The notes beneath the pieces were generated by a model. The model had not been told where the DNA came from. It searched no databases and was given only the letters and a program-made list of their open reading frames with translations. Shown piece after piece: positions 19,518 through 50,013 of a stretch of 64,000 nucleotides of DNA (position 1 is its first letter; each line of letters starts with the position of its first letter). Made by a program: the position numbers and the translations under genes. Origin of the DNA: Aureococcus anophagefferens (Eukaryota > Sar > Pelagophyceae > Pelagomonadales > Pelagomonadaceae); assembly GCF_000186865.1 (NCBI RefSeq), contig NW_008705565.1, forward strand, positions 1,961,811-2,025,810, given 5' to 3'.

Positions 19518-21599
19518 TTACGCTCCTAGGCGGCGGCCTCGGAGACGACCTGGCCGTCGGCGAAGACGGTCGTGCTTCTCGACCTGGCCGTTGGGGAACT
19601 CGAAGGTCTCGAGGCCCGTCGCCGGATCGCAGGTGTGCGTCGTCTCCGCGGCCGCGTAGTAGTAGACGATCGCGCCCGCGGCCGTCGTCGTCTTCACGTC
19701 GCCGTTCGTGAAGGTGACGACGGCGTCGCCCGTGGTCGGATCGGCGAGCTTGCGCGTGCCGTTGCGGTACTGGACCTCGCGGCGGCCGTCGCGCCACGAC
19801 CGCTCGAGCTTGCCGTCGCGGCCCGTCGGCCGCCACTCCGACGGCGCGTCGTCCTCGGCGGCGTCGTCCGCGTCCTCGGCGGCGTCCTCGGCGTCCTCGG
19901 CGGCGCCGCCGGCGCTCGACGCGGCGCCGCCGTCGTCGGACGAGCCCGCGTCGGCCGTCGCGGCGCGCGCCGCGGCGCCGAGGAACGCGCGGTCGTCGTC
20001 GCCGACGCCGAGGACGCCGCCGCCGGAGGCCGCGCCGCCGTAGCGGCCCGCGTCGTAGGACGACTCGAGGCGCGTCGCGGCGTCGAGGACCGTCCGCGTC
20101 GGGCCGTCGAGCCCCGCGTCCGACGCGCGGTCGACGGAGTCGCGGTCGAGGCCGAAGACGTCGACGTCTCGCTCCGACGCGCGGTCGACGGCGTCGCGGT
20201 CGAGGCCGAAGACGTCGACGTTCCGCTCCGACGCGCGGTCGACGGCGTCGCGGTCGAGGCCGAAGACGTCGACGTTCGGCTCCGACGCGCGGCCGACGGA
20301 GTCGCGGTCGAGGCCGAAGACGTCGACGTCCGCGCCGCGCTCGGAGGCGTCGCGCGCGTCGTCCCCGGGGCCGAGGGCGTCCGCCTCGCCGTCGAGGGCC
20401 GCCGCCTCCGCCGGCGCGCGCGCGGTCGCCTCGGCGGCGCGCTCGGCGGCGCGGCGCGCGGCGCGCGCGGACCGCTCGCGCTCCGCGGCCGCGTTCTGCT
20501 CGCGGAGGAGCTCGAGCTGCGTCGCGAGCTCGAGGAGCCGCTGGTCCGAGCGCGCGTTGCGGTCCGCGAGGCGCCGCTCCGTCTGCCGCTCCCGCGCCGC
20601 GCGCGCGTCGTGCTCGGCGCGGAGCCGCGCGGCGTCGGCCTTGAGGCGCTCGAGGTCGGCCTTGCGGCGCCGGTCGCCCGCGACGCGCTCGTTGCGCCGC
20701 TCGCGGCGCGACCGGTGGAGCGCGAGCGACTCGCGCTTCGCGCGGTCGCGCTCGGCGGCGACCCAGGCCTCGACGCGCGCGCGCCGGTCGCGCCGCGCCG
20801 CGGACCGCTCGTCCGCGCGATCCCGCGACGCCGCCGTCGCCGCCTCCGCGCGCGCGCGGAGCTCCTTGGCCGCGGCCCGCTCGCGCCGGAGCGCCTCGCG
20901 CGCGTCGCGGAGCTCGTCCTCGAGCGCGGCGACGGCGTCCGCCTCGTCCTCGTCGAACGCGTCTTCGTCGGGCTCGGGCTCGGGCTCGGGCGCGGCCGCG
21001 GCCGCGGCCGCGGCCGCGGGCGCGCGCGCCGGCGGCGGCGAGAAGAGGTACTTGACGAGGTCCGACTGCGGCGGCGGGCTCGCCGGGTCCGGCGGCGCCT
21101 CGGGCTTGGCCCGCGGCTTGCCCGACTTGCGGAGCCGCGCGAGGCGCTCGATCTGCGCCGTCGACCGCCGGAGCGGCGCGTCGTCGCGCGCGGGACCGTC
21201 GTCGCGCGCGGGCGCGAACTCGGCGCTCGACGCCACGGACGGCGCGCGCGGCGGGAGGTGCTCCGCGCTCGACGCCGGGTCGAAGGTCGGGAACGACCGC
21301 CGCGGCGGCGCGGCGCCGAGGTCGGCGCTCGACGCCACCGACGGCGCGCGCGGCGGCAACTCCGCGCCAAAGTCCGGGAAGATGTCGTGCGGCGCGCCGT
21401 TCCGCGGCGACAGCTCGTACTCGTCGAGCTCGCCGCCGCCGCCGCCGACGGGCCGGTAGTCGTCGAGGTAGACCGGCGCGTCGTAGGCCTCCGTGTCCGA
21501 CGGCGGCGGCGTGCAGTCCGGCGGCGGCGGCGACGCGCTCCGCTCGCTGCCGCTCCACGCCTCGCCGCCGCTCCACTCGCGCGGCAGGAGGTCGATCAT
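19518..21599 (-). CDS. CENPJ: Centriole protein CPAP/SAS-4 (TCP10 C-terminal domain)
   Basis: About 693 residues from the Met at 21599 (MIDLLPREW). Order: Pro/Ser-rich N-terminus with two PRAPSVASSAE-like repeats, a long Arg/Ala/Glu coiled coil (about residues 215-400), four 18-residue repeats (VDVFGLDRDAVDRASERN type), an acidic linker, and a C-terminal beta-rich G-box of TCP10/CPAP type: LERSWRDGRREVQYRNGT, then TFTNGDVKTT, then ETFEFPNGQVEKH. CPAP/SAS-4 builds centriole walls and binds STIL through the G-box, so the organism probably forms basal bodies at some stage. The last repeat runs out of frame near 19570: another frame reads VFADGQVVSEAAA then stop at 19526-19528, so a one-base indel or sequencing error is likely. 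Confidence 0.8.
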   Translation of the reverse strand: MIDLLPREWSGGEAWSGSERSASPPPPDCTPPPSDTEAYDAPVYLDDYRPVGGGGGELDEYELSPRNGAPHDIFPDFGAELPPRAPSVASSADLGAAPPRRSFPTFDPASSAEHLPPRAPSVASSAEFAPARDDGPARDDAPLRRSTAQIERLARLRKSGKPRAKPEAPPDPASPPPQSDLVKYLFSPPPARAPAAAAAAAAAPEPEPEPDEDAFDEDEADAVAALEDELRDAREALRRERAAAKELRARAEAATAASRDRADERSAARRDRRARVEAWVAAERDRAKRESLALHRSRRERRNERVAGDRRRKADLERLKADAARLRAEHDARAARERQTERRLADRNARSDQRLLELATQLELLREQNAAAERERSARAARRAAERAAEATARAPAEAAALDGEADALGPGDDARDASERGADVDVFGLDRDSVGRASEPNVDVFGLDRDAVDRASERNVDVFGLDRDAVDRASERDVDVFGLDRDSVDRASDAGLDGPTRTVLDAATRLESSYDAGRYGGAASGGGVLGVGDDDRAFLGAAARAATADAGSSDDGGAASSAGGAAEDAEDAAEDADDAAEDDAPSEWRPTGRDGKLERSWRDGRREVQYRNGTRKLADPTTGDAVVTFTNGDVKTTTAAGAIVYYYAAAETTHTCDPATGLETFEFPNGQVEKHDRLRRRPGRLRGRRLGA
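20119..20334 (-). repeat. Four tandem 54-bp repeats inside the CPAP-like gene
   Basis: Units start at 20119, 20173, 20227 and 20281, each encoding 18 residues (consensus VDVFGLDRDAVDRASERN). The DNA copies are nearly identical, pointing to recent in-frame expansion. Confidence 0.9.
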
Positions 21600-22828: not shown

Positions 22829-23079
22829 GCACGCTCCGGACGGTGGATGCCCCTCCGATCCGCGCTGCTGCCCGGGGGCATCCCTGCGTGTGCGAGCGCA
22901 GGCGGGCCGGGGGTCGGTGCCGAGGGCCTCTGCTTCCAATCCTTGGCCAGGCTTGGCTTGTCGAGCGCCTCGCCGACGTCCAGCACAACATCTCGGCTCG
23001 CGGGCGACGCCGAGGACGACCGCGACCGCCTCGAGGTGACGCTGGGCAGCTCGTGCTCGGCGGCGCGCCCGTGACCAAC

Positions 23080-24327
23080 ATGGGGGACCGCTACGGCGGC
23101 GGCGGCGGCGGCCACTACGGCGGCGGCGGTTCCCGCGGCGGCTACGACGACCGGCGCGGCGGCGGCGGCGGCGGCGACCGCTACGGCGGCGGCGGCGGTT
23201 CCCGCGGCGGCTACGACGACCGCGGCTCCCGCGGCGGCGGCGGCGATCGGTACGGCGGCGGCGGCGGCGGCCACTACGGCGGCGGCGGCGGCGGCGGCTA
23301 CGGCGGCGGCGGCGGCGGGCGCGACGGCGGCTCGCGCGGCGGCTACGGCGGCGGCGGCTCCCGCGGCGGCGGCGGCGGCGGCGGCGGCGGCGTGAGCTAC
23401 GCCTACGACAACTCGCGCGACGCGGGCCGGAACTGGCGCGACCGGGAGCTCGGCGGCGCGCGCGGCGGCGCGACGCACCTCGCGCGCATCCACGGCACGG
23501 AGGAGGACAAGGTCAACTGCCCGTTCTACTTCAAGATCGGCGCGTGCCGCCACGGCGACCGCTGCTCGCGCCAGCACCACAAGCCGCCGTTCTCGCAGAC
23601 GATGATCGTCCAGCACATGTACCAGAACCCCGCGAGTCAGATCGCCGCGGCGGGCGGCGACCCGAGCCAGCTCGACCCGAAGAAGGTCCAGGAGGAGTTC
23701 GACGACTTCTACGAGGAGGTCTACGACGAGCTCGCCAAGTACGGCGAGATCGAGGAGCTCAACGTCTGCGAGAATTTGGGCGACCACATGGTCGGCAACG
23801 TCTACGCCAAGTTCGCCGACGAGGAGCACACGGACGCGTCGCTCAAGGCCCTCTTCGGCCGCTTCTACGCGGGCCGGCCCCTCGTCTGCGAGTTCTCGCC
23901 CGTGACGGACTTCCGCGAGGCGCGCTGCCGCCAGTACGACGAGGCCGTGTGCACGCGCGGCGGCTACTGCAACTTCATGCACATCCGCACGCCCTCGCGG
24001 AGCCTCCGCCGCGACCTCGAGAAGCGCTACAAGAAGAAGTGGCGCAAGGAGCGCGAGAAGCGCGAGCGGCAGGAGCGCGGCGAGGACGTCACGTCCTCCG
24101 ACGAGGAGAACGACGACAAGGACGACAAGGGCAAGGACAAGCCGTCCCGGTCCCGGTCGCGCTCCCGGTCGCGCTCCCGCGACCGCAAGCGCCGCCGCGA
24201 CGGCGACGGCGCCGACGACGACGGCCGCGACCGCCGCCGCCGCAAGGACAGCGCCGACGACGACGCCAAGCCCAAGGACGAGCCCGCCGCCGAGTCCGCG
24301 CCGCCCGCGCCGGAGCCCGAGGCCTAG
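23080..24327 (+). CDS. U2AF1: U2AF small subunit (U2AF35) with Gly-rich N-terminal extension
   Basis: About 415 residues from the ATG at 23080. U2AF35 binds the 3' splice-site AG and partners U2AF65 in early spliceosome assembly. The conserved part starts with HLARIHGTEEDKVNCPFYF (about residue 130), followed by the first CCCH zinc finger (CPFYFKIGACRHGDRC), the UHM-type RRM (FDDFYEEVYDELAKYGEIEE), the second CCCH finger (CRQYDEAVCTRGGYCNFMH) and an RS domain (SRSRSRSRSRD). In other eukaryotes the protein starts almost directly at the first finger; here about 125 residues of GGGG, SRGGYDDR and RYGGGG repeats precede it. The repeats are coded by long GGC runs. All zinc ligands are present. Confidence 0.92.
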   Translation: MGDRYGGGGGGHYGGGGSRGGYDDRRGGGGGGDRYGGGGGSRGGYDDRGSRGGGGDRYGGGGGGHYGGGGGGGYGGGGGGRDGGSRGGYGGGGSRGGGGGGGGGVSYAYDNSRDAGRNWRDRELGGARGGATHLARIHGTEEDKVNCPFYFKIGACRHGDRCSRQHHKPPFSQTMIVQHMYQNPASQIAAAGGDPSQLDPKKVQEEFDDFYEEVYDELAKYGEIEELNVCENLGDHMVGNVYAKFADEEHTDASLKALFGRFYAGRPLVCEFSPVTDFREARCRQYDEAVCTRGGYCNFMHIRTPSRSLRRDLEKRYKKKWRKEREKRERQERGEDVTSSDEENDDKDDKGKDKPSRSRSRSRSRSRDRKRRRDGDGADDDGRDRRRRKDSADDDAKPKDEPAAESAPPAPEPEA

Positions 24328-32129: not shown

Positions 32130-32316
32130 ACGCTACCCAGTCTGTTTGCCACACAATTTTTGTTGAAGTCAGCCAGCTTCGCTGCGGACAGGTTTACTCT
32201 GCAGACCCCGTCATCGATGTTGATTCTCGGCAGCCTCGGCGGTCCGCTACTCTAGAGTTGGCTGCCTGCGCCGTTCGCGCGCAGGCGTCGGCAGCCTCGG
32301 TACCGGTCCGCTGCTC

Positions 32317-32384
32317 GAGCTGTAGCCTGCGCGCCGTTCGCGCGGCCGGGAGCTGTAGCCTGCGCGCCGTTCGCGCGCGGCCGG
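32317..32384. repeat. Tandem repeat of about 33 bp upstream of the giant gene
   Basis: GAGCTGTAGCCTGCGCGCCG begins at 32317 and again at 32350, each running on through TTCGCGCG and GGCCGG. Related shorter pieces (TCGGCAGCCTCGG) lie at about 32228 and 32288. This fills most of the 276-bp gap between the divergent helicase and adhesin-like genes. Confidence 0.8.
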
Positions 32385-32405
32385 CGCACAGCAACCAGCG
32401 GCGCC

Positions 32406-35400
32406 ATGTGGCGGCGCTGGTGGGCGCTGGTCGCGGCACTCAGAACGCCACACGCAACAGCCGTCTACACGGTCGCGCTGTACCGCCAGCCCGCCGACGC
32501 CACCGCGGGCCTCGCCTTCGGGTCGCAGCCGACGGCCGTCGTCTACGACGACTCCGGCGCCGTCGCGGCGACGCTCGACGGCTCCTGCGTCGTCGACGTC
32601 TCCTCGTCGCCGAGCGGCCAGGAGGACCTGTTCCGCAACGGGTCGTCGCTCGAGCGGTTCCGGCGCATCCCCATCGTCGACGGCTACTGCGCCTTCGACC
32701 TCGTGTCCATCGACACCGTCGGCACCTACACCATCGGCGTGACCGCCGAGGACGACGACAACTTCGGCTTCGCGTTCGTCGTCTCCGACGCCTTCGACGT
32801 CGTCGTCGGGTCGCCGCACGAGATCGTCGTCGCGGGCTACCCGTCGGGCGGCACGGGCGGCGAGCCCTTCGGGCTGCAGCCCGTGATCAACGTGCTCGAC
32901 GTCGGCGGGAACCTCGTCTCCGACTGGTCCACGGGCTCCGTCACCGCGAAGATTTTGGACGACGGCGAGCTGGGCCGCTACTCGCCGAACCCCGGCGCGG
33001 AGCTGCTGCCGGCGTCGAAGACGACGGCGAACTTCGCCTTCGGCGAGGCGCAGTTCGACGGTTTGTACATCAACGAGGCCGGCGGGCCCTACTACCTGCT
33101 CTTCACGGCGGCGGACTTCGGGGACGTGGCGCTCGCGGGCGGCCAGCGCGCGGAGATCCCGGGCATGACGATCTACATCGGCGCGGCCCAGACCGTCGAG
33201 CTGCTGGAGCCGTTCTCGGAGTTCGCCGAGGGCGGCGCGCCCTTCGCGGCGCAGCCGAGATTGCGCATCGCCGACGCGGGCTCGAACACCGTGCTCACGG
33301 ACTCGACGTCGCTCATCGTCGCGACGCTGACGTCGAACCCGACGTCCTCGACGTTCATCTCCGCGGACGCGGCCGTCGCCGTCGTGGATATGGGCGTCGT
33401 GACGTTCTCGAACCTCGGCATCAACGCCGTCGGCGAGCGCTACGTCGTGTCCTTCACGCTCTGGCTCTACTCGTCGTCGACGGGCACGCACGCCGACAGC
33501 GGCATCAGCGTCGAGGGCGGCTACGTCGACGTCGCCGCGGGGCCGCCGGCGTACCTGGGCATCATCACGCCCGCGGGCGACGTCGTCGCCGGCGGCGCGG
33601 CCTTCGGCACGCAGCCGGCGCTGGCGCTCTACGACAAGGGCGCGAACGCCGTCGAGAGCGACGGCGCGGACGCGTACGTCGTCGAGGCCAGGGCAGCACA
33701 AGAGAGCGAAATTCCCAACTTCAAAGGCTCCGATCTCGGCCGTTCGCCGCTCGTTTCGGCTGATTCTTGGACGAGCGATCATCTCTCGGAGCGCGCTCGA
33801 AGCGTTGATGCTTTCTCCGGAACGCGCGCGCGCGGAACACTCACGTTGAAGCGACGTTGAATCTCTCTTGTGCTGCCCAGGTCGAGGCGGACATCGTGAC
33901 GTCGCTCGGCGAGGCGTGGATCGGCGTCGTCTCCACGGCGTCCGGCGACCCGCCGAAGGTCGCGAGCGTCGCCGTCGTCCTCGCGGGCGCCACGGCCCCG
34001 ACGCCCGCGGGCGCCGTCGGCAGCGCCCACGGCCTCGATACCCTGACCTCCGGCGACGCGGTGGAAATCGCGGTGACGTTCGACGGCGACTGCCGCGTCG
34101 AGCGCGAGGCCGACGGCTACGCGCTGCCCGTGCTGCGACTGAACGCGAACAACGGCACGCGGGGCGCCTACGCGAAGCTGACGACGACCTACGACTACTA
34201 CCGCACGCACGTCTTCACGTACGCGTTCCGCGAGGGCCGGGGCAGCACAAGAGAGCGAAATTCCCAACTTCAAAGGCTCCGATCTCGGCCGTTTTCCACT
34301 CGTTTCGGCTGATTTTTGGACGAGCGATCATCTCTCGGAACGGTCTCGAAGCGTGGATGCTTTTTCCGGAACGCGCGCGTGCGAAACACTCACGTTGAAG
34401 CGACGTTGAATCACCCTTGTGCTGCCCAGGCGAGGGCGACGACGCGGCGCTGCTGGACGCGTTCGGCGCCGGGGCGTTGGACGTGCGGGGCAACCCCTGT
34501 CTGGACGGCTACGGCCGCGAGGCCAACGCGACGCTGCCCGTCGGCGCCAACGCTCCGGGGTCCCTGGCGAACTCGACGCCCTACGCCGTGTCGACGGCGC
34601 GGCCGACGATCGTCGCGTGCAACCTGACCTTTCCCTCGACGCCGGGCATCTACGCGCCGGGCACGACGCTCGTCTTCAACGTCACCTTCGACGCCGACGT
34701 CGAGGTCGTGCTCGGGACCGGCGTCGGCGCCGCGGTCTATTTGCCGCTGCTCATCGAGCCGTCGCAGCCGACGCCCATCCCGACGTTCGCGCCGACGCCC
34801 AAGCCGAGCTCCTACCCGTTCAACGCGACGCCGGGGCCGACGCCGGAGCCCGTCGACTACGGCACGACGTCCTACGCGACCTACGCGTCGGGATCGGGCG
34901 GCCCGACGCTCGTCTTCGACAGGGCAGCACAAGAGAGCGAAATTCCCAACTTCAAAGGCTCATATCTCGGCCGTTTTCCGCTCGTTTTGGCTGATTTTTG
35001 GACGAGCGATCATCTCTCGGAACGGTCTCGAAGCGTAGATGCTTTTATCGGAACGCGCGCGCGCGGAATACTCACGTTGAAGCGACGTTGAATCACTCTT
35101 GTGCTGCCCAGGTCTTCGAGTACTACGTCCTCGCGGACCAGGACTCGCGCGGCCGACCCGTGGCCGTGCCGAACCGCACGGTGTTGTTGACGCCCGGCGG
35201 CGCCGCCGTCTACCGGCGCGCGGCGACGCCGACGACGACGGCGATCGCGAGCATCAACGCGAGCGCCGTCGAGAAGGCGGGCGTGATTCTGGACAACGCG
35301 CGGCCAAAAATCAACGCGAGCTACGGCGTGCGCCCCATCTCGCCGAACGGCACCTACTACGCCGGCGACGAGATCTTCCTCGAGATCGCCTTCGACATGG

Positions 35401-38400
35401 CCGTCGCGATCCCGGAGGTCTACCCGCCCGTGCTCGGCCTCGACTCCGGCATCGGCGCGGAGACGTTCGCGAGTTACTACTCCGGCACGGGCACGAAGGT
35501 GCTCACGTTCCGCTACACGGTCGTCGAGGACGACGACAACGCCCGCTTCGACGTCTGGGGCGACTCCAGTTTAGGCGTGTCGTCGTCGAACGGCTACGTG
35601 CGGCGCCTGAGCGACGACCCGCTCGTCGACGCGGATTTAGATTTGTCCGACGTGCGCCGGCACAAGAGCCTGGCGAACCTGAGCAAGATCAAGATCGACG
35701 GGCGCTACCCGGAGATCATCGCCTACGGCGTCGCGAACCGGACGACGTCGGCGGGCAAGCCCGTCCACAAGGGCAACACGACGCGCGTCGACGACGTCGT
35801 CACGGTCTCCGTGACCTACAACAAGCCCGTCCAGGTCTTCGGCGCGCCGACGCTGACCATCGACGCCGGCCGGGACCGCGAGGCCGTCTACAGCGGCGGC
35901 AACGCGTCGCGGACGATTTTTTTCGAGTACGTCGTCCGCGTCGCGGACGTGAGTTCGCGCCTGGGCATCCCCGCGTCGCAGAGCGAGATCAACGACGGCT
36001 ACACGGACGGCGCCTTCGGCGGGCGGGGGCGCATCCTCCTGTCGTCGGCGGCGCCGTCCGTCGCCGCGGACCCGCGGCTCTACCTCGCCGCGGCCGCGGA
36101 CAAGTCGCTCGGGAGCCCGCTGTCGTCTCCGGCGGCGTCGAACGTCGCGCTCCACAACTCGACGGGCTACACGGTCGTCGACGGGTCCCGGAGCCGCCCC
36201 ACGGCCGTCAAGTCCGTGACCTACGATTCGTCCGACGGCGTGGGCGGCGCCGCGGGCGCGTACGGCGCGGGCGACCGCGTGACGATTCTGGTCGAGTGGA
36301 CCGACGAGGTGCTGACGTCGTCGCCGCCGACGCTGCGCCTCAACAACGGCGCCGAGGCCATCTGGATCGGCGGCCTCGAGACGGAGACCTGGACCTACAT
36401 GTACCTCATCGCGGAGGCGGACGCGGAGGTGAAGAATCTGGCCGTCGCGCGCGTCGACGACTTCTTCGACCCGGGCATCGCCGGCTACCCGCGGACGGCC
36501 CTCTGGTGCAACTACAGCGCGGGCTGCGACATCACGGATAGGTTGGGCGTCGCCGCGAACCTGTCCATGGGCAACTTCTCCGGGAACCTGCAGCTGCCGG
36601 CGGGCATCGAGATCGACGTGACGCCGCCGCAGATTATAGACGTCGGCGTCTACACGCAGTCGTCGACCTACGCGCCTTTGGGCGACGGGCCCTACGGCGA
36701 CGAGGGCGCCTGGTACACGGTCGGCGAGATCATCGACCTCTGGATCGACTTCGACCGCGACGTGTCGCCCGCGTCCGACGACAAGCCCCTGCTCGAGCTC
36801 GACCTCGGCGGGAAAGCCAACTTCCCCTTCGCCGTCTACGACCGCATGGTGGGCAGCAAGCGCATGGCCTACAAGTACACGGTGCGCGCGGGCGACCACA
36901 CGCAGAACCTCACGCTCGTCGGCGTCAACGACGTCCAGGGCATGGCCGAGGTCTACCTCAAGGCGTCCGCGTTGACGACGCGGGCGAACCTGAGCCTGCC
37001 CCAGTACCTGCAGGGCGCCATGCTCGGCGCGAACACGTCGGCGACGGACGCGTCGGCGACGGAGTTGATCGTGGTCAAGACGGACCGCACGCCCGCGGTG
37101 TGGAACGTGTCCTTCGACGAAAGCCTGGCGACGGCGACGCTGGGCCCGGGCGACGACGTGACGATTTACGTCGACTTCACCTACCCCGTCGTCGTCGAGG
37201 GGGCGCCCGTGCTCTGCCTGAACGCGAACCGCGACGACGCGGACGCGCGCTACGTGTCCGGCTCCGGCACGACGCGCCTCGTCTTCGCCTACGACGTCCA
37301 GGCCGGCGACGTCGCGCTCCAGCTGGACTACACGGACAGGTACGCCCTGCGGCGGGGCCGCGTGCGCGACGCGGACATCTCCGACGACAAGCTCGCGTCC
37401 ATCGGGAAGATCGCCGCGGCGGCCGCGACGCCGGAGCTCGTCGCGGAGCTCACGCTGCCCGCGCCCGGCGAGCCGCGGTCCCTGTCGGGCGCGTCGCGGC
37501 CCGTGCTCGCCGTCGACGGCACGGCGCCGCGCATCGTCAAAGTCTCGCCGAACCCGAACTTGGCGTCCGGCACCGTCTTCGGCGCCGGCGACGAGGTCCG
37601 CGTGGACCTCACGTTCAGCCGCCCCGTGGTCGTCCAGGGCACGCCCAAACTGCTCATGGAGACGGGCCCCGTGGACCGCTACGCCTACTACGTCAACGGG
37701 TCGAACTCGACGACGCTGGAATTCCTCTACGTCGTCCAGGCGGGCGACAGCAACGACCGGCTGGACTACTTCGCGGACCAGAACCGCGCGCGCCGGGCCA
37801 CGGACACGCTCGTCCTGCCGGCGAACTGCACGATCAAGCTCGTCGCGGAGCGGCCCGTGCTCGACGCGGACGTGCTGCTGTCGCCGCCGCGGTCCGTGCT
37901 CATGTCCGCGTCGGGAACTGTGTACGCGGACGAGCCGGCCACGAAAACGTCGGCCGACGGCGGCGCCTATTTCGATGATCTGGCGACGTCCATCGTGGGC
38001 ATGGGCTACGTGATACGGTATTCGTCGAGCCACGTCTCCATGCCCGGGTTCGCGTTCCGCGCGAAGGGCGAGTTCAACGTGCTCTCGTCGGCCGCCGCGA
38101 AGCTCCAGGTCGGCGACGGCGGGTCCTTCGACGTCATGGAGGCGGCCTTCGGGAGCCAGGACGTCCAGTTCAGCCACGAGCAGGCCGGCGGGGATTTGTT
38201 GGGGTGGGCCGTGGCCACGGACTACGCGAGCGGCCGCATGGTCACCTCCGCCCCCGGCAAGGCCTACCCGCTGCCCGAGGTCCAACTGCTGACCGTCGGC
38301 GGGTCGGCGAGCGCGACGAGCGAGGAGGTCCAGGCCTACGGCGTGGGGGTGTTGGTGCAGGCCGCGGTGCAGTCGTTCACGACGTACGCCTCGCCGGGCG

Positions 38401-41400
38401 AGGAGGTCGGCGGCACGTTCAACCTGCAGTACAGCGACGAGGACGGCAATCTCGTCGCCGCGTCGGCGGACGTGCCGGCGGGGATTGAGCCGATGGCGGC
38501 CGCGGAGCTGCTCATGGACGCGTACCCGGACCTCGGCCTCGTGACCGCGAGCCGCGAGCCCTACGACTGGTGCGCGTGCACGGGCGCCTACACGTGGTCC
38601 ATCACCTTTGATGGCTTGCTGGGCACGCCCTACGTGGGGCTCCTCGTCGTCGACGGGTCGTCGCTGACGGGCGCGGGCGCGACGGCGACGAAGGTGAGCC
38701 GCGACGCGGAGTCGAGCTACACGAACGGCACGTGGCGCCTCGCGCTGCCCGCGGCGGAGGGGTCGAGCGTCGTCGTCAACGAGACGCGCGCGCTCCTCGC
38801 CGGCGCGTCGAGCGTCGACGTCAAGACGGCCATCGAGGAGGACCTGGGGCTGGACGTCGCCAACGTCGACGTCGCGGATCTGAACGACTACGGCGCGCGG
38901 CGCTGGGCCGTGACCTTCGCGGACCGCGTCGTCGCCGCGCCGGCGAACGCGACGTCGACGTCGATCCGCACGCTCAACGACGTGCCTCTGCTGATCGCGG
39001 AGTCCGTCGACCTCGCGGGCGGGCCGGGAGCGGCCGCGTGGGCGTCGCCGATCCGCGACGGCGAGTCGCCCGTCTGGGGCACCTTCGCCGTGAGCTTCAA
39101 CGGCGCGGGGCCGTCGGCGCCCATCGACCACGACGCGTCGGCGGCCCAGGTCGAGGAGAAGCTCGAGGGTTTGGAAAGCCTGGAGGACGTCGACGTGTCG
39201 AAGCACTACGATCTTTTGGGCGACGGCACGCACACGTACCGCGTGACCTTCTCCAAGGTCAAAGAGAAGAGCGACGTCGACACGGGCACGGGCGCCGCCG
39301 AGGGCTTCTCCTGGGTCGGCGCGCCCGTCTACGACCTGCCGGGCCTCGCCGTCGACGACGACGCGCTCTACGGCACGGCCGCGCGCGCGGTCGTGCACCG
39401 CGCGGGCGACTACGACGCCCTCGGCCAGGCGCCGCCGCCCTGGGCCGGCGCCGTGCGGGGCGCCCGGGGCAACGGCGCCGGCGCGGCCTACGTCTACCAG
39501 CGCGCGTTCCTCAACAACCAGGACTCGACGTACCAGTGGTCCCAGGAGTTCGCGCTGCGGCCCGACCCCGTCGACTACCACGGCGAGAACATGGCCTTCG
39601 GCCACGCGCTGAGCTTGGGCACGGGCGGGGACGTCGTCGCCGTGGGCGCGCCCTACGCGGAGGACCACGGCGTCACGGAGCAGCAGAACGTCACGTGCGG
39701 CGGCGCGTCGCGCGGAACGTTCCGCCTCGGGCTCTTCGGGTTCTGGACGGAGCCCATCGCCTACAACGCGTCGGCGTCGGAGCTCCAGAGCGCGCTGCGG
39801 GGCGCCTACGGCGGCACGGCGCGGCTCCACCCGACGCCCTACGTCGACGTCGAGCCGCTCGGCGTCGCGTCGATCTGCGGCAACGCGACGCGGGCCCCGC
39901 GCAACGGCACGAACAGCTCCCTGGCCTACGCGGCCAACGAAACGACGGTCGTCGTGACCTTCATCACGCCGCCGAGCGGCAAGGGCCTCGCGGCGACCGT
40001 CGCGGACCTGCCGCTGCTCTCGTTCAAGCCCGGCGACGACTTCGACGGGACGGTCGACGTCGCGGAGGTGCGCAAGGGCACGGCCATGCCCATGGGGGAC
40101 GACGCCATGGGCCAGGCGACGGGCGCGGCCTTCGTCTTCGCGCGGCGCCTCGTCGACGCGACGGCGTACCCCGCGTCCGGCGCGTGGGACCAGGCGGCGA
40201 AGCTCGGCGCGGCCGGCGGCCAGGCCGGGGACCGCTTCGGCTGGAGCGTCGCCGTGCACAACGCCTACGCCGGCGCCGACACGCTCGTGGTCGTCGGCGC
40301 GCCCGGCGGCGGCGACGACCGCGCGGGCCGCGTCTACGTCTTCTCCGACGCGGCCTACTCGGGCGCGTCGTCGACCTTCGAGGGGCCCCTCGACCCCCTC
40401 GACACGTCGGTCTACGGCACGGCGGCGGGCGACGACTTCGGCTATAGTCTGGCTTTATCGGCGACGTCGGGCGTCATCACGCTGCTCGTCGGCGCGCCCG
40501 GCGACGACGGCGGCGCGGGCGCGGTCTACGTCTTCAAGTCCACGGGCAGCGTCTGGGACACGAGCCACGGCTCCGGGTTCACGCTCACGCAGAAGATCGA
40601 GGCGACGGCCATGCTCCTGGCGCCCGCGCCGGGCGACCGCTTCGGCGCGTCGCTCGCGCTCGACGGCGACGACGCGCTCGTGGGAGCGCCCGGCGCGAGC
40701 GACTACGCGCGGCGCGGCTCCGCGGCCTACGAGTCGGCGGCGCCCGTCGCCGAGGCGGGCGCCGTCGCCGTGCTGAAGCGGGCGACGGTGCTCGACGCCT
40801 TCGACTTCGAGGAGCGGCTCGTCGCGACGAACGTGCTCCGCGGCGATCGCTTCGGCCAGGGCAGCAAAAGAGAGCAAAATTCCCAACTTCAAAGGCTCCG
40901 ATCTCGGCCGTTTTCCACTCGTTTCGGCTGATTTTTGGACGAGCGATCGTCTCTCGGAACGGTCTCGAAGCGTGGATGCTTTTTTTGGAACGCGCGCGCG
41001 CGAAACACTCACGTTGAAGCGACGTTGAATCACCCTTGTGCTGCCCAGGCTTCGGCATGTGCCTCGCGCTCGAGAACGGCACGGCCATCGCGACGTCTCT
41101 CGGCGGCCTGCGCGACCTGAGCTCGCGCATGGTCGCCCAGGACGCGGGCCTGCTGCCGCGGCACGCGCTCTGGCAGGTGCGGACCGTCGCGTCGAGGTGC
41201 GCCGCGAACGACACGCGGACGGGCTCCGTCTCGACGTGCGCGAGCCCCGTCGGCGGCGAGTTCCGCGTGGGCTGGCGGTCGACGAACGCGTCCGTCGCCG
41301 ACGAGCAGTGCGCGACCGTCGAGCCCTACGCGTCGATGACGTCGCGGAGCCTGTGCGAGGTCTACGCGGGGCTCCGCTACAACCTCTCCGCGCCGCGGAC

Positions 41401-44400
41401 GCGGTACACGCGGTGGCTGAACCACGCCGCGGAGGCGACGGAGCTCGCGGCGGCGCTCATGGAGGACCTGGGCACGGGCGACGTCACGGTCGTGCGGTCC
41501 TTCGCGTCCGGGTCGTTGGAGGTCCAGTGGAACATCACTTTAAAAGACGCGGACGCCTACGACGTCCTGCCGCCGCTCTCCGTCGACGGGTCGCGCCTCG
41601 TCAACGACGGCGTCTCCGCCGTCGCCGAGGAGCTGCGGCCCATGCCGAAGCGGCTCCGGGGCGTCGGCCACCTCTTTACGAGAGAGTCGTCGACGTTCGT
41701 CGAGCAGGCGCTGCTCCGGCCCTACACGGCGCAGCGCCAGGACGCCTTCGGCTTCGGCTGCGCCCTCGACGGCGACATGGGCGCCGTCGGCGCGCCGAAC
41801 ACGGACAGCGTCGAGAGCGGCGTCAACTCCGGCGCCGCGTACGCGTACGAGCTCACGTTCGCGTCGACGGGCTTCGCGAACGCCACCTACGCCGTGCCCG
41901 AGGGCGACGCCGTGGCGCTGCGCGTGGGCCGGCGCGACGGCGAGGGCTTCGCGCGGACCATCGCGCCGGGGCGGAACTTGATCCTGTTCGTCTGGACGTT
42001 CAGTCGGAACGCGGACGTCACGCAGCAGGAGTGGCTCAGGGACCTCTACGGCCTCCACGACGACCGGATGCTGGCGCCGGGGTCCACGCCCGCGGAGTTC
42101 TTGGGCGCCGGCGCGGCCCACGGCCGCGCGTCCTGGTACGGCGGGCCGTCGAACTCGTCCCAGTGGGTCGACGGCGCGAAGGACGATCTGGCCGCGTCCG
42201 ACTACGTGCCCATCGGCCAGGGCCGGGGCATCATCAAATTAAAAGACGGCGACTACTTCGTGCCCATGAGCTTTAAGCTCTACAACGAGATCACGCTCCA
42301 GACGACGGACGACCAGCTCTACGAGAAGCCCGACGAGGACGTGGTCGTGGGCGTCTGGCTCCCGGGCATGTTCCCGTCGCCGCTGGGCGCGCTGCGCACG
42401 GTCGTGACGATCCTCGACGACGGCGACGGCGTCGACGACTCCGACGCGTCGACCTACGAGCACCTGGGCGAGGGGGAGACGTTTGGAACCGCGGGCTTCG
42501 GGTCGGCCCGGCCGCCCTCGGACGTGCCCGAGGTCGGCAGGGGCGCGGGCTTCGCCGTCGCGGCCTACAACGACACGCAGGGCGGGTCTTTGGTCACGGA
42601 GGACCCCAAGGTCCAGGAGGCCGTGGCCGTCTTGGGCGCGCCGAAGCACAACGGCTCGCGGGGGCTGGCGCTGGTCTACCGCCGCGTCGGCGGCGCGTGG
42701 GCCCTCGAGCAGACGCTGACGCCCTACGACACGCGCAACGACACGGCGGGCCTGCTGCCGGCGGCGTCGCCCGACGAGTTCGGCTGCGCCGTCGCGGGCG
42801 CCGTCGTCCACGGCCGGCCGCTCGCGGCGACGGTCCTCGTGTCCGCGCCGGGCGCGCCCGCGGTCTACGCGTTCCAGCGAGTGAACGTGACGCGCGCCGT
42901 GCCCGAGTACCTGCTGGACGCGCGCTACGACGTCAACGGCACGTTGCTCAACTACACGCGGGTCAACGCGACGGCCGCGACGTACGCGTGGACGCTCGAG
43001 GCGACGCTCACGGCGGCCGCGGCGACGCGGCGGAGCCACAACTTCGGGGGCCGCGGCGCCTTGGCCGTCGACGGCGACGTCGCCGTCGTCGGCGCGTCGG
43101 GCCTCGAGTGCGTCTACGTCTTCCGGCGGACCTGGGACGGGGCGGCGTTCGCGTGGAACGGTGCGCCGGAGCTCGTGCGGTCGCTCGACTACGACTACGA
43201 CGTGCTCCTCGGCGGCACGTGGACGCGGGTCCACGAGCAGGGCTTCGGCACGGCCGTCGCCCTCTCCGGGAACACCCTGGTCGTCGGCGCGCCCTTCGCG
43301 GACTACGGCAACAAGGGCTCGCCGGACGACGTCGAGACCTACGACACGGACGGCCTGGACAACCGGCGCCTCGGCCGGGGCAAGGCCTACGCGTTCTACT
43401 CCGTGCCGCCCCAGGCCATCGTGACCGTGCGCGCCGACAGCGTCCTCTTCAACGGCACGTGGCGCCTCGAGGTCGACGACTTCCGCAACGCGAGCTGCAA
43501 GACGGCGGAGCTGGCCTACGGCGCGACGGCCGTCGAGCTCCGCGACGCGCTCGACGACGCCTGCAGCCCCGGGGGCGCCGTCGCCGGCGGGCTGGGCATC
43601 GAGGTGTCGCGGAGCGAGCTCGCGCCGACGGCCTCGGGCGGCGAGCGGCGGTCCTGGACGGTGACGTTCTTGGGCGAACCGGACGCCGCGCCTCCCATCA
43701 AGGCGGCGTGGCGCGGCTACGGCTGCGGCGTGTGCGATTTGTTCAACGACGGGTGGGCCCAGGCGCCGGACCGCCAGGTCATCGTCGACTTCTCCACGGA
43801 CGACGGCGTCGTCTACGACCGGGGGGGCATGGACCAGGCCGCGGCGCTGCAGCCGGACGACCGAAGCTCGGGCTCGTGGTTCGGCTACGCCGTCGCCGCG
43901 CACGGCGACGCGGTCGTCGTCGGCGCGCCCCACGCCGCGGGGGCCGCGATGACGACCTGGGACTTCGAGACGGGCGACCTGAGCGGCTGGCGGGCGACGG
44001 GCGACGCCTTCGACGACCAGCCGACGTTCGGCGACGGGCCGAGCTACCGCGAGAACATGGAGTACCCCGTCGGCAACGACGGCACGGGCTCGGGCGGCGG
44101 GCCGCCCCAGGCCGCGCGCCTCCGGGGGCGCTACTTCGTCGGGACGCTCGACGACCGCCAGGGCGCGCGCGCGTCCCAGGGCAGCTACCTCGTCGCCGAC
44201 GACTACGCGGGCGCCGCGGGCACGCGCGGCTCCGACGACGCCACGGGCACGCTGACGTCGGAGCCCGTGCTCGTGCCCGTCGCGTCCGGCGTCGTCTCGG
44301 ACGGCGCGCCGCTCGCCGTGAGCTTCCTCGTCGGCGGCGGCTGCGACCCGCTCACGGAGTACGTCGAGCTGCTCATCGACGGCGCGGCGGTGGCGCGCGC

Positions 44401-45898
44401 GACGGGCGCGTGCGACGAGCGCATGCACAACCGGAGCTTCGACCTGAGCGCCTACGAGGGGCGGTCGGCGACGCTGCGCGTCGTCGACGCGTCGAAGAGC
44501 CGCTGGGGCCACGTCAACGTCGACCACTTCCGCTTCTCGTGGCCCGCGCGCGGCTTCGGCGTCGGCGCGCTCGCGGGCCCCGCGGCGACGACCGCGGCGG
44601 ACGAGGCGGCCGTCGCCGCGGAGGTCGCGGGCATGAACTCCCTCTACGCCGTCGGCGGCGGCCGCGCGGGCGAGACCGCGCGCGCGGGCGCGGCCTACGC
44701 GTTCCGCCGGAAGAGCGGCAGCGACCCCCTCGCGGCCTGCCGCGGCGACAAGGAGGACTGCGCCTGGGAGTACATGGACAAGCTGCTCCCGTCGGACCGG
44801 CGCGCGGGCGACGGCTTCGGCTACGCCGTCGCCGTCGACGACGACGCGGGCGTCGCCCTCGTCGGCGCGCCGAACGCGGACGCGACGACGCGGTGGAAGC
44901 TGCCGCCGCCGCTGCGGCCCGTGGGCCGCGCGCCCGCGCGCTACGAGCCGACGGACTGGGTCTGGTACCAGTCCGAGTACGCGACGGCCTTCGAGTCCGA
45001 CTACCTGGACCGCGCGTCGCCCGTGCGGCTGCCCATGGACCGCGACGACCGCGAGCACAACTCGCGGAAGCTCCGGAATCTGGGCGACGGCCGGACGCGG
45101 AACCCGAGCGGCGCGGGCGCCGTCTGGGCCCAGCGGGCCCGGGACGTCTTTGTGGATGAGGTCGAGCGGCCGCACCCGCACCCGTCCGTCGACGAGGCGC
45201 GCGACGCGGGCGCGCTCTACGTCTTCGACCGCGAGGACGAGGACGTCGACGTCTACGGCGTCACGCACCAGTGCCCGCGCTGGGGCGGCCTCGAGGTCGC
45301 GAAGCTCGCGGGCACCGTGTCCCCCTTCGCGCGGCAGCACCTCGGCGCGGCCGCGGCCGTGGCGGGCCGCGCGCTCGTCGCCGGCGCGCCCGAGGACGAC
45401 GCCTTCGGCGAGGGCGCGGGCGCCGCGGTCGTGCTCGACCGCGACGCCGCGCGCGTGTCCTTCGCCCAGGCCGAGTTCTCCGTCGTGGAAGGGTTCGAGT
45501 ACGCGACGGTCATGGTCTCGCGCGACGCGCTCTACGCCGAGCGGCCCGTCACCGTGGCCTACTCGACGGAGGACCTCACGGCCAAGGGCGTCGACGACGG
45601 CGGCTATTTAAAGTGCAGCGGCGGCGCGCCGAACTCCGCCGCGAGTTCGGGCTGCGGCGACTACCGGCAGACGTCGGGCGTCGTGACGATCCCGAAGGGA
45701 GCGACGACGGCCGTGTTCTACGTCTTCATCGTCGACGACCCGTGCTACGAGCCGACGGAGTACGTCCAGCTGAGCCTCTCCGCGCCGGGCGCGCCGACGC
45801 TCCAGGGCGAGGGGTTCCTCGCGAAGCTGAGGATCGACGACGACGACTGGCGCACGGCGTCCTCGACGGTGTACTGCCCGGACTCGGGGTTTCTCTAG
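32406..45898 (+). CDS. Giant secreted adhesin-like protein with four introners
   Basis: Exons 32406-33680, 33881-34229, 34430-34911, 35112-40848, 41049-45898; they total 12,693 nt, an exact multiple of three, giving about 4230 residues. A Trp/Arg-Leu N-terminus (MWRRWWALVAALRTPHATAV) looks like a signal peptide. About residues 25-600 hold repeats with a GxxFGxQPxxxxxDxGxN pattern; 700-1650 hold Ig-like beta-sandwich repeats ending in motifs such as TLEFLYVVQAGDSNDRLDY; 2200-4060 hold FG-GAP-type propeller repeats (GDRFGWSVAV, GDDFGYSLAL, GDRFGASLALDGDDALVGAP, QDAFGFGCALDGDMGAVGAP); 4085-4215 is a Calx-beta domain (FSVVEGFEYATVMVSRD ... YVQLSLSAPG). No membrane anchor at the C-terminus. Many NxS/T sites. 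Probably an extracellular matrix or adhesion protein; ligand unknown. Confidence 0.85.
33689..33880 (+). mobile_element. Introner element, family 1, copy B (intron 33681-33880)
   Basis: 192-bp element between identical 8-bp repeats GTCGAGGC (33681-33688, 33881-33888). Left end CAGGGCAGCACAAGAG; right end CTCTTGTGCTGCCCAG. GT donor from the repeat, CAG acceptor from the element; 200-nt intron. Splicing restores ADAYV-VEADIVT. Confidence 0.96.
34238..34429 (+). mobile_element. Introner element, family 1, copy C (intron 34230-34429)
   Basis: 192-bp element between identical 8-bp repeats GCGAGGGC (34230-34237, 34430-34437). Left end CGGGGCAGCACAAGAG; right end CCCTTGTGCTGCCCAG. GC donor; 200-nt intron; frame restored. 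Only 349 bp of exon separate it from copy B. Confidence 0.95.
34920..35111 (+). mobile_element. Introner element, family 1, copy D (intron 34912-35111)
   Basis: 192-bp element between identical 8-bp repeats GTCTTCGA (34912-34919, 35112-35119). GT donor, 200-nt intron. Splicing rebuilds GGPTL-VFEYYVLADQDS, a match to the repeated LxFxYxVxxxD motif of the protein, which is independent support for the junction. Confidence 0.96.
40857..41048 (+). mobile_element. Introner element, family 1, copy E (intron 40849-41048)
   Basis: 192-bp element between identical 8-bp repeats GCTTCGGC (40849-40856, 41049-41056). Left end CAGGGCAGCAAAAGAG. GC donor; 200-nt intron. By eye it differs from copy C at fewer than ten positions. 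Splicing rebuilds GDRFG-FGMCLALENG, inside an FG-GAP repeat. Confidence 0.95.
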
Positions 45899-47198: not shown

Positions 47199-50013
47199 TT
47201 AGTCCCCCTCGCGCCAGGAGTGGCGGCAGGCGAGGCACGTGAGGAAGTAGAGATCCCGCACCTCGGACGTGCCGTAGCTCGTCGACGGGAGGGAGACGAC
47301 GGACGCGGTGCACCGCGTCGAGTCGCACGCCGGGCAGGCGAAGCCGGCGACGTCCTCGGCCGCGGGCGCCGCCTCCTCGCGGGGCCGCTTCCGCCGGCTC
47401 TTCGCCGCGTCCGTCGCGCGGTCGCCCGGCGCCATGGCGAGCAGCGCCTCCGGCGCGAGCGCGCCCGTCGCGACGCGCCGCCGGAGCGCGTCGTTGCGCC
47501 GGAGGTCCGCGATGAGCCCCCGCGCGTCCCCGCGGAGCTTCGCCGCGTCGCCGCCGCAGCGGGCGCGGAGCCCGGCGCCGACGGCGCCGGCGACGGCCGC
47601 CGGGAGGCCCGCGTGCTCCAGGAGCCCGTCGACGGCCGCGGGCGCGGCGCGCCGCGCGGCCTCGGCCCGCGCGGCGATTCTCCGCTTCATCGCCGCGACG
47701 ACGCGCGCCGCGAGGCCCGCGGCCTCGCCGTCCCGTTTCCGCAGCGCGTTGGCCGCCCGGCCGACGCCGGACGCGAGCACGGCGGCCGCGTCGTCGACGT
47801 CGAGGCGCTCGAGGCGCCGGAGCGCCGCGACGGCGCCGCCGCCCGCGAGGTCCGCCGCGATGGCCGCGAGCACGGGCGCGAGGTCGCCGCAGGCCGCGGC
47901 GGCGCGACCCACGGACGCGCGGAGCGTCTCTCCCGGGCGCGCGGGCCGCGCCGCCGCGGAAAAAACGTGGAGCGCGCGCGGGCCCCGGTCGACGTCCAGC
48001 ACGAGGGTGCCGGTCTGCGCGAAGCCGGCGACGGCGACCGTGACGCCCGCGGGCGCCGCGCGGGGCGGCCGGTCGCGGCGGCCCGCGTCGTCGTCGTCCG
48101 CCGCCGCGGGCAGCCTTCGCGCGAGCTCCGCGACGAACGCGACGGGCAGCTCGACGCACTCGAGGCCCTCGGCGCTCGCGAGCGCGTCGCGGCACGCCAG
48201 GGCCGCCCGCTGCGCCGCGTCGGCGCCCCGCGCGGCGACGGCGTCCGCCGCGCCCGCGGCGTCGAGGTCGCCCGCGGCCGCGGAGGCGTCGTCGAGCGCC
48301 GCGAGGACGCGGTAGCACGCGCCGCCGAGGTCCGCGCGCCGCGCCTCGCGGCGGCCGTCGTCCAAACCCCAGGACGGCGCGCTCGCCGCGGTCCAAAATT
48401 TCCGGAAGGCCGCGACGGCGTCCTCGGCGCCGTTCGCGAAGTCGACGACGCGCGGCCGGTCCGGCTTGCCCGGCGCGGCGCGGTTCGCCCGCGAGTAGAT
48501 CTGCACGAGGCGCGCGGCGGACGCGACGACGCGATCCACGTAGAGGCAGCAGAGCCGCGGCTCGTCGAAGCCCGCCTCCAGCTTGCCGCAGACGACGATG
48601 ACGTCCGCGGCGGCGAGGGAGGACTGGTTGAGCCGCGCCTCGTCGACGGCGCCGCCGCGGCCGTCGTCCACCGCGCCGCTGAGCGCGCCGTAGACGACGC
48701 CGCGGACGCGGGTCCTGAGAGCCCGCGTCCAGGCGACGACCGCGCGCCGGCTCCGCGCGACGACCATGGCCTTGCCCCCCGCGTAGCGCCGCTCCCGAAA
48801 GTCCGCGGCGACGAACGCGGCCTTGGCGCCGACGACGGCCGCGTGCTCCTCGACGGTGCCGACGTCGCGCCGCGCGCCCCTCGAGGCCTCGCGCTGGTGC
48901 GCGTCGAGGATCCGTATCTCGATGCGAGGCGCGGCGAACTGGCGGAGCACGTCCAGGCAGAGGCCGCGCGCGACGGCGTCCTTCAGCGGCAAGCAGTGGA
49001 GCGGCCGCAGCAGCTTCGACGACTCGTCCATGGACCCGAGCGCGCGGAGCGTCCGCGGCGCCGGCGTCGCCGTCAGGCCGACGACGGCGCGCAGCGAGCC
49101 GCCGAAGGCGCCTAGGAGCGCCGCCCACGCGCCGTCGGCGTCGTTCGAGTAGGACCGGTGCGCCTCGTCGACGACGACGGCCGTCGCGCCGCCCGTTGCG
49201 ACGGCGCCGCCGAGGCGCAGGAACTTCTGGAGCGTCGAGAAGACGACGCCGCGCCGCGACGCGAGCGCGCCGCGCAGGTCGTCGACGGACTCGACGCGGT
49301 GCACCGCGTGGCGCGCGCCGCAGACCTGGGCAGCACAAGGGTGATTCAACGTCGCTCCACATGGCGTTTCGCGCGCGCGCGTTCCGGGAAAAGCATCCAC
49401 GCTTCGAGACCGTCCCGAGAGATGATCGCTCGTCTAAAAGTCAGCCAAAACGAGTGGAAAATGGCCGAGATATGAGCCTTTGAAGTTGGGAATTTCGCTC
49501 TCTTGTGCTGCCCCGCCGCAGACCTCGGCGCAGACGCCGAAGAGCTGCTCGTCGAGCTGCGTGCGGTCGTTGACGACGAAGACGCGCAGGCCGCCGTCGA
49601 CGAGCGCCGCCGCGAGGCCCGCGACGGTCAGCGACTTGCCGCTGCCCGCCGCGTGCTGCACGAGGCACCGCGCCGGCGCGGCCGCCGTCGCGGCCCGCGC
49701 CGCCAGCGCGACGCGCTCGACGGCGGCGACCTGGTGCGCGCGCGGCGCGAGGCCCGCGGCGCGGAAGTCGCCCGCCATCGCGGCGCGGATCGCGGCGCGG
49801 CGGGCTTCGAGGTCCGTGGGTGTCGGANNNNNNNNNNNNNNNNNNNNNNNNNNNNNNNNNNNNNNNNNNNNNNNNNNGAGGAGGAGGAGGAGGAGGCGGC
49901 GGCGCGCTCGTCGTCGCAGCACCAGGCGTCGCCGCGGTCGTCGCAGCGCTCGTCGTCGCAGCATCAGGCGTCGCCGCGGTCCTGCACGGTGCCTCCGCAT
50001 TGCTGCAGAGCAT
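47199..50013 (-). CDS. HsdR-like SF2 helicase fused to TFIIS central domain and zinc ribbon
   Basis: Coding pieces on the minus strand: an N-terminal part interrupted by a 50-N gap (49828-49877), 49524-49827, introner intron 49326-49523, then 47199-49325. Helicase motifs after the gap: APRAHQVAAVERV, motif I LVQHAAGSGKSLTVA, VVNDRTQLDEQLFG, motif II VVVDEAHRSYS, motif III GLTATPA and LEAGFDEPRL/QIYSRANRA, the style of type I restriction subunit HsdR. The last 200 residues match TFIIS: domain II-like DLRRNDALRRRVATGALAPE and a C-terminal ribbon FACPACDS ... FLTCLACRHSW (CX2CX29CX2C). The TFIIS catalytic DE pair is not clear: SE stands where it should be. No nuclease domain seen. Start at 50013 or 50000 depends on the true gap length. 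Confidence 0.75.
49326..49515 (-). mobile_element. Introner element, family 1, copy F, minus strand (intron 49326-49523)
   Basis: 190-bp element read on the minus strand, between identical 8-bp repeats GTCTGCGG (minus strand; plus positions 49516-49523 and 49318-49325). Left end CGGGGCAGCACAAGAG, right end CCCTTGTGCTGCCCAG. GT donor, 198-nt intron, frame unchanged. Its orientation follows the host gene, not the chromosome. Splicing rebuilds FGVCAE-VCGARHAVH. Confidence 0.95.
49828..49877. other. Assembly gap, 50 N
   Basis: Fifty N, a round number, so probably a placeholder of unknown true size. The right side is a GAG-rich microsatellite followed by two copies of a GCTCGTCGTCGCAGCA-type repeat at about 49908-49985; low complexity probably caused the break. 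It lies within the helicase gene's 5' part. Confidence 0.9.

Follow-up and report, generated by a model that had tools for sequence, protein, structure and literature searches.

A 64,000-nucleotide stretch of the Aureococcus anophagefferens genome (contig positions 1961811-2025810; hereafter the window) carries intron-like insertions that resemble transposable elements, and the locus raises the question of what these insertions are and what sets the direction in which they would be spliced. Introner elements of A. anophagefferens were published by Huff, Zilberman and Roy in Nature in 2016 (doi 10.1038/nature20110); reportedly, the element brings one splice site and the duplicated target sequence brings the other. 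The window copies resemble those introners in host (the same species or a very near strain), in length (~200-210 bp), and in having target duplications and inverted repeats. According to PMC10228655, the 2016 paper reported introner insertion in both orientations; PMC7789003 and PMC9481584 describe A. anophagefferens introners as always having direct repeats and inverted repeats of constant length, and give ~210 bp as their characteristic length, respectively. A sequence-only reading of the window had named introners with target-site duplications as known from Aureococcus, and the precedent does lie in the same species. Given this published precedent, the introner finding itself is not new.

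Nine copies were counted, the same number as in the earlier reading. Seven belong to family 1 (A to G, elements of 190-192 bp) and two to family 2 (elements of 203 and 198 bp). The copies and their parts are as follows.

4902-5112, + strand: family 2 introner, predicted GC-AG intron; ends CTGTGTGG..CCACACAG, AG on both strands; duplication with 2 mismatches.
16951-17150, + strand: introner A, predicted GC-AG intron; exact duplication gcgctcgg; in a SacI/Fig4-like phosphatase gene.
32256-45898, + strand: host gene of B, C, D and E; a single 4,280-aa frame after predicted splicing; FG-GAP_2 repeats and a Calx-beta domain recognised in its unspliced pieces.
33681-33880, + strand: introner B, predicted GT-AG intron; left duplication gtcgaggc at 33681-33688, 192-bp element at 33689-33880, right duplication at 33881-33888; gapless homologue P0121; occupied in P0122.
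33689-33706, + strand: 5' terminal inverted repeat of B; A at position 2 (CAG), where T is the mark of a mirror-image subfamily.
33863-33880, + strand: 3' terminal inverted repeat of B, CTCTCTTGTGCTGCCCAG; pyrimidine-rich run and predicted acceptor AG.
34230-34429, + strand: introner C, predicted GC-AG intron; left duplication gcgagggc, 192-bp element at 34238-34429, right duplication at 34430-34437; gapless homologue P0121.
34912-35111, + strand: introner D, predicted GT-AG intron; left duplication gtcttcga, 192-bp element at 34920-35111, right duplication at 35112-35119; based on the frame.
40849-41048, + strand: introner E, predicted GC-AG intron; left duplication gcttcggc, element at 40857-41048; in the same gene as B, C and D and required for the 4,280-aa frame.
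49326-49523, - strand: introner F, predicted GT-AG intron on the minus strand; 190-bp element at 49326-49515, duplication gtctgcgg.
61368-61567, + strand: introner G, predicted GT-AG intron; duplication gtctacta; within a kinase activation loop.
62205-62410, + strand: family 2 introner, predicted GC-AG intron; duplication GCCGCCAC/GCCACCAC; in the EF-hand part of the kinase gene that hosts G.

The target duplication is an exact 8 bp in seven of the nine copies, with one mismatch in another and two in the last. Predicted donors are GT in four copies (B, D, F, and G) and GC in five (A, C, E, and both family 2 copies), and the predicted acceptor is AG in all nine. For B, C, and D, the 192-bp size and the identical flanking 8-bp repeats described before were confirmed (gtcgaggc, gcgagggc, and gtcttcga), and the near-identical interiors correspond to 92-94% pairwise identity. 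Their inverted ends are also present but imperfect: CAGGGCAGCACAAGAG and CTCTTGTGCTGCCCAG in B and D are mismatched at position 2, and C starts with CGGGG. Copy A shares 84-86% identity with B, C, D, E, and G, and its 5' inverted repeat has decayed. Exact 8-mer matches at a distance of 200 occur at 17 of 63,790 window positions, introner copies counted in. The copy at 62205-62410 combines a family 1-like 5' end (CAGGGCAGGAAAC) with an interior and 3' end of family 2, as though the families could swap ends. Elsewhere in the window there are direct-repeat arrays at 20065-20383 and 23044-23464 (54-bp units; short units).

Treating the left repeat plus the element as an intron had been proposed to restore the frame in B, C, and D, and this held in each case; E must be removed in the same way to give the single open frame of 4,280 aa, all forward frames of the unspliced region being interrupted before they span it. 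Removal of G and of the copy at 62205-62410 yields a calcium-dependent protein kinase in which the best Pkinase stretch covers profile positions 43-263 of 263, versus 42-165 unspliced, with EF hands downstream. Splicing of G restores GTVYYTAPEV in the activation loop and leaves no gap at the junction against a solved CDPK. The boundary at 62205 was picked to agree with P0001, a relative lacking the insert; a start at 62208, 3 nt off, was rejected because P0001 is one residue shorter than that boundary would give, and the kinase query used in the homologue comparisons carried the one extra residue from 62208. With A removed, the gene encodes a SacI/Fig4-like phosphatase whose alignment to Fig4/SAC1 phosphatases is gapless across the junction. 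The D and E junctions are supported by the reading frame, no homologue crossing the D junction having been found in the homologue search, and those of F and the copy at 4902-5112 by a codon model and the frame.

Empty sites had been suggested as a check, and at the protein level, at which all calls of empty or occupied sites were made, they were found in relatives for B and C (P0121), for G (P0002), and for a reverse-oriented family 2 copy elsewhere in the genome (L083), the last in P0124. Frames running into an element were checked by matching them to introner translations against shuffles. P0121, a metagenome protein read as a 604-aa frame on a 2,024-bp contig, is 62% identical and gapless across the B and C junctions, while the B site is occupied in P0122 (97%). 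The end of P0121 reads as a family 1 element at another position (score 65 versus a maximum of 40 in 200 shuffles), which suggests a further introner gain in this gene. P0002 (99%, on a 16.7-kb contig) runs straight across G, and its frame enters an introner at the second family 2 site; as this prediction therefore looks not to be intron-aware, site G would be empty in P0002. The second family 2 insert is missing from both P0001 and P0008, and G is missing from P0001, though these two may be intron-modelled predictions, and the transcript-derived homologue P0004 (64%) shows an insert-free protein only. Homologues P0125 and P0126 cross the L083 junction, and P0124 (99%) lacks that copy and has a family 1 element just downstream, after ...KCAGMY. 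Given that the family 1 elements in P0121 and P0124 lie at sites empty in the window's genome, gains seem to have continued in both lineages.

Where they align, the GenBank protein P0003 of A. anophagefferens and the spliced kinase are 100% identical; local alignment gives 80% because the P0003 model retains and drops pieces. This model retains part of introner G and part of the copy at 62205-62410. The A. anophagefferens model P0128 ends inside the L083 copy. Both run into introners, perhaps because GC-AG introns were not modelled, and some A. anophagefferens proteins thus appear to be mis-predicted.

We then turned to copies across the 49.05-Mb assembly. It holds 1,287 family 1 5' ends with at most one mismatch; exact ends number 486 for family 2 and, for family 1, 424 beginning with CAG and 89 beginning with CTG, these three counts excluding ends that have G nine bases outside. 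Flanks were read for 92 unique copies (64 of family 1 and 28 of family 2), five duplicates having been dropped and two further copies not located. The sample was not random: L001-L030 and L061-L090 were the closest matches to a window copy and L031-L060 were chosen by 3'-end variant, so that old, decayed, and intergenic copies are under-represented, and 9 of the 92 were excluded as not clearly coding. Reading the longest frame of spliced loci proved misleading and was dropped, since all frames of GC-rich DNA contain long open stretches. Instead, both flanks of each copy were scored with a codon model that had been trained on the 4,280-aa gene; on two other genes the model returned the expected frame in 16/16, 4/4, and 64/69 pieces.

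Both flanks were clearly coding in 83 of the 92 copies, and their frames, found separately, agreed after intron removal in all 83 (58 of family 1 and 25 of family 2). The predicted donor taken from the target duplication was GY (GT or GC) in 81 of the 83 (GC 51, GT 30, with GA in the other 2), compared with 21 of 83 on the opposite side. A single insert of the 83 had a length that was a multiple of three and no in-frame stop, and 44 of the 83 were in phase 0. Flanking 8-bp duplications had been proposed as a genome-wide check; in the copies read, with duplicates counted, the duplication was exact for family 1 in 51 of 67 and for family 2 in 27 of 30, and it was exact in 18 of 19 mirror-image copies described below. 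One copy in apparently non-coding DNA, L048, has ttcataga as its best duplication, each repeat having one more G towards the element, off the usual register. L020 and L021 lie ~6 kb apart with identical 30-bp flanks and no matching duplication, and are probably a duplicated segment and not two insertions.

Among the first 100 listed of 165 target copies at 3' ends, 96 begin with GY. GT and GC donors number 51 and 45, 46 and 50, and 44 and 41 in three lists of ends, and in the window as a whole GC outnumbers GT 3.2-fold. As predicted from these sequences, GT is favoured some two- to threefold as a donor and GC is tolerated, the donor being whatever GY the target offered. GA stands at the donor position in L017, L057, and L099, in otherwise good coding contexts; target copies starting with GA make up 4 of the first 100 listed 3' ends, 2 of the first 100 listed CAG ends, and 2 of the 89 CTG ends. 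These copies may be spliced at GA itself or, instead, at an inner GC 12 nt downstream.

In family 1 the 3' inverted repeat closes with the predicted acceptor AG (..CTGCCCAG), and the genome also holds copies with a family 1 interior that have CTGGGC at the 5' end. In all 89 of this CTG type, GY was found on the reverse strand in 85 and on the forward strand in 36; among the first 100 listed of the 424 CAG-type copies it was found on the forward strand in 96 and on the reverse in 28 (Fisher, 1e-23 and 4e-18). Nineteen mirror copies were read with their flanks (L037, L091-L096, and L098-L108, from the first 29 exact CTG copies listed), of which 12 were chosen with the target letters already seen and the coding strand not yet known. 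The duplication was exact in 18, and the predicted donors were GT in 11, GC in 7, and GA in 1. Wherever the coding signal was clear (15 of 15), the copy codes in reverse with a continuous frame; four were unclear, and one of these, L096, scored slightly better forward, its reverse frame not being continuous. L104 has two mirror-type introners in one region, with 59 bp between the elements.

The interiors are as similar between the two types as within them. Across 64 forward copies aligned with 7 mirror copies, similarity was 0.933 among forward copies, 0.951 among mirror copies, and 0.936 between them, and a tree of interiors intermixed the types with weak support. The sole position pair that separates the types without overlap is terminal nucleotide 2 at both ends, the first of the pair doing so because of how the copies were chosen. 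Since the same interior with CTG..CTG ends has donor, acceptor, and coding strand reversed, the CAG end goes with the direction of the intron; at the level of sequence statistics, the predicted splicing direction goes with the terminal nucleotides of the element.

Family 2 shows the two-way case. Its ends, CTGTGTGG and CCACACAG, make both strands finish in CAG, and among the 84 elements represented by the first 100 listed of the 486 ends, 83 had GY on at least one side. The 25 unique, clearly coding copies run 18 along the query orientation and 7 against it, with GY as the coding-side donor in all 25. The two families are alike over ~55 bp when family 2 is reverse-complemented (alignment score 40 versus a maximum of 25 in 500 shuffles).

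The copies carry the marks of introners in their sequence, namely many near-identical copies, a target duplication, splice sites split between element and target, and presence or absence among relatives. They are almost certainly short, non-autonomous, MITE-like DNA transposons that turn into spliceosomal introns on insertion, and reading them as introners with 8-bp target duplications is now supported by homologues at A, B, C, and G. It is extremely unlikely that they are instead ordinary MITE insertions in broken genes (pseudogenes) that go unspliced: the GenBank models that read into an element (P0003 and P0128) would fit this, but neutral insertion predicts GY in ~20% of copies and frame agreement by chance in one third, against the coding signal and exact frame on both sides of 83 of 83 copies and the GY beside the CAG end of 81; the mirror type moreover shows a matching direction, and the kinase and SAC genes retain conserved domains after splicing. 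A transposase with a target preference for GY, accounting for the donor bias with no selection on splicing, is very unlikely. GY is indeed near-universal beside the CAG end, and on the non-acceptor side (28/100 and 36/89) it exceeds the 20% background, so that some target preference may exist; however, the target bias of a cut-and-paste element should look alike from both ends, whereas the strong bias here sits on the CAG side and switches side with the terminal nucleotide while the interior is unchanged. Spread through RNA, in which excised introns are reverse-spliced and then copied back, would explain why the copies sit as exact introns, 83 of 92 in clearly coding sequence in this non-random sample, and yet is the least probable of these accounts. 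The 8-bp duplication, the inverted repeats, and the reverse-oriented copies fit DNA transposition and not reverse splicing, and as the left duplication is part of the intron but differs from copy to copy, it is not the whole intron that is copied.

Two further alternatives concern details of the introners. The 5' splice site could lie within the element, at an inner GC (CAGG^GCAG), in which case the message would gain 12 nt (four codons). The legend of Fig. 2F in PMC9860276 describes an Aureococcus sp. family that keeps the 8 bp of the duplication and 4 bp of the element, family 1 has GC at that offset, and such a site would rescue the GA copies; as a rule it is very improbable, because it would leave the GY in the duplication unselected, yet 81 of 83 copies have it. 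As to the origin of the mirror copies, a route by way of a two-way intermediate, with point mutations at both ends, is possible but rather doubtful. Family 2 shows that two-way elements exist, and 2 of the 89 CTG copies have a forward donor only; on the other side, the non-acceptor ends in splicing sense have similar spectra with no T in either type (A49, G11, and C4 in 64 forward copies, one counted twice; A16 and G3 in 19 mirror copies), counts that are not independent events, as family 1 copies are related. Inversion between the inverted repeats would carry such a spectrum along at once, and the spectrum suggests that the mirror copies arose in this way. A broader reading, plausible though somewhat less likely than not, is that there are two mirror-image subfamilies sharing one interior, in which terminal nucleotide 2 at both ends decides the intron strand and the flip recurs by recombination between the element's own inverted repeats; the inverted repeat would then be a portable, reversible 3' splice site, and the interior would hold no directional splicing information.

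On the introner reading, an element moved by a transposase acting in trans would insert into a target that becomes an 8-bp duplication. Its terminal inverted repeat carries a pyrimidine-rich run whose final CAG is the predicted 3' splice site, and the GT or GC with which the left target copy opens would serve as the predicted 5' splice site. The spliceosome would remove the left target copy together with the element and so restore the frame, and insertions without GY beside the CAG end would be lost by selection. The mirror-image subfamily would stem from inversion of the interior between two inverted repeats and not from separate point changes.

Terminal inverted repeats and near-constant length are as expected of MITEs. 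hAT elements have a consensus that begins with CA(G) at both ends. The window elements share with hAT-type MITEs the 8-bp duplication and, in family 1, a splice-sense 5' end that is mostly CAGGG; they differ in that family 1 has CTGGG at its other end and family 2 has CTGTG at both, in place of CA(G) at both ends. Six-frame Pfam searches of the genome found no hAT dimer, hAT RNase-H, or KDZ domain, the controls for these searches being silent, and no MULE domain, in a search whose control gave a signal. The family 1 end pattern had no match in viral contigs, and a viral route was set aside: the single match to a shared 19-bp core (L097), on a 39%-GC contig with no recognisable element, looks like chance.

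Introners of other lineages offer further comparison. In Gozashti et al. 2022 (PMC9860276), introners have duplications and inverted repeats as here, some likewise carry the 3' site and take the 5' site from the duplication, and the methods allow for insertion in the opposite orientation. The same paper describes Aureococcus sp. family 4 (TARA genome; ~76 bp), with both splice sites in the element and 12 bp added to the mRNA, whereas the window introners are predicted to add nothing; the copies with GA donors (L017, L057, and L099) may use the inner GC 12 nt in, similar to that 12-bp addition. The terminal-nucleotide rule was not found in the introner literature searched, in its accessible parts and with the 2016 A. 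anophagefferens paper outside that search, and the link between the letter at the element tip and the splicing direction, with a mirror-image subfamily, is possibly a new detail.

The mass origin of introns is a long-standing question to which the introners of A. anophagefferens are a known answer. What the present copies provide is a natural reciprocal experiment, in which near-identical insertions with different terminal bases give opposite predicted intron directions beside a two-way family. According to PMC3033335, 39.6% of introns in A. anophagefferens are GC-AG and their origin was termed an enigma; a GY that is taken from the target, as predicted here, bears on that enigma.
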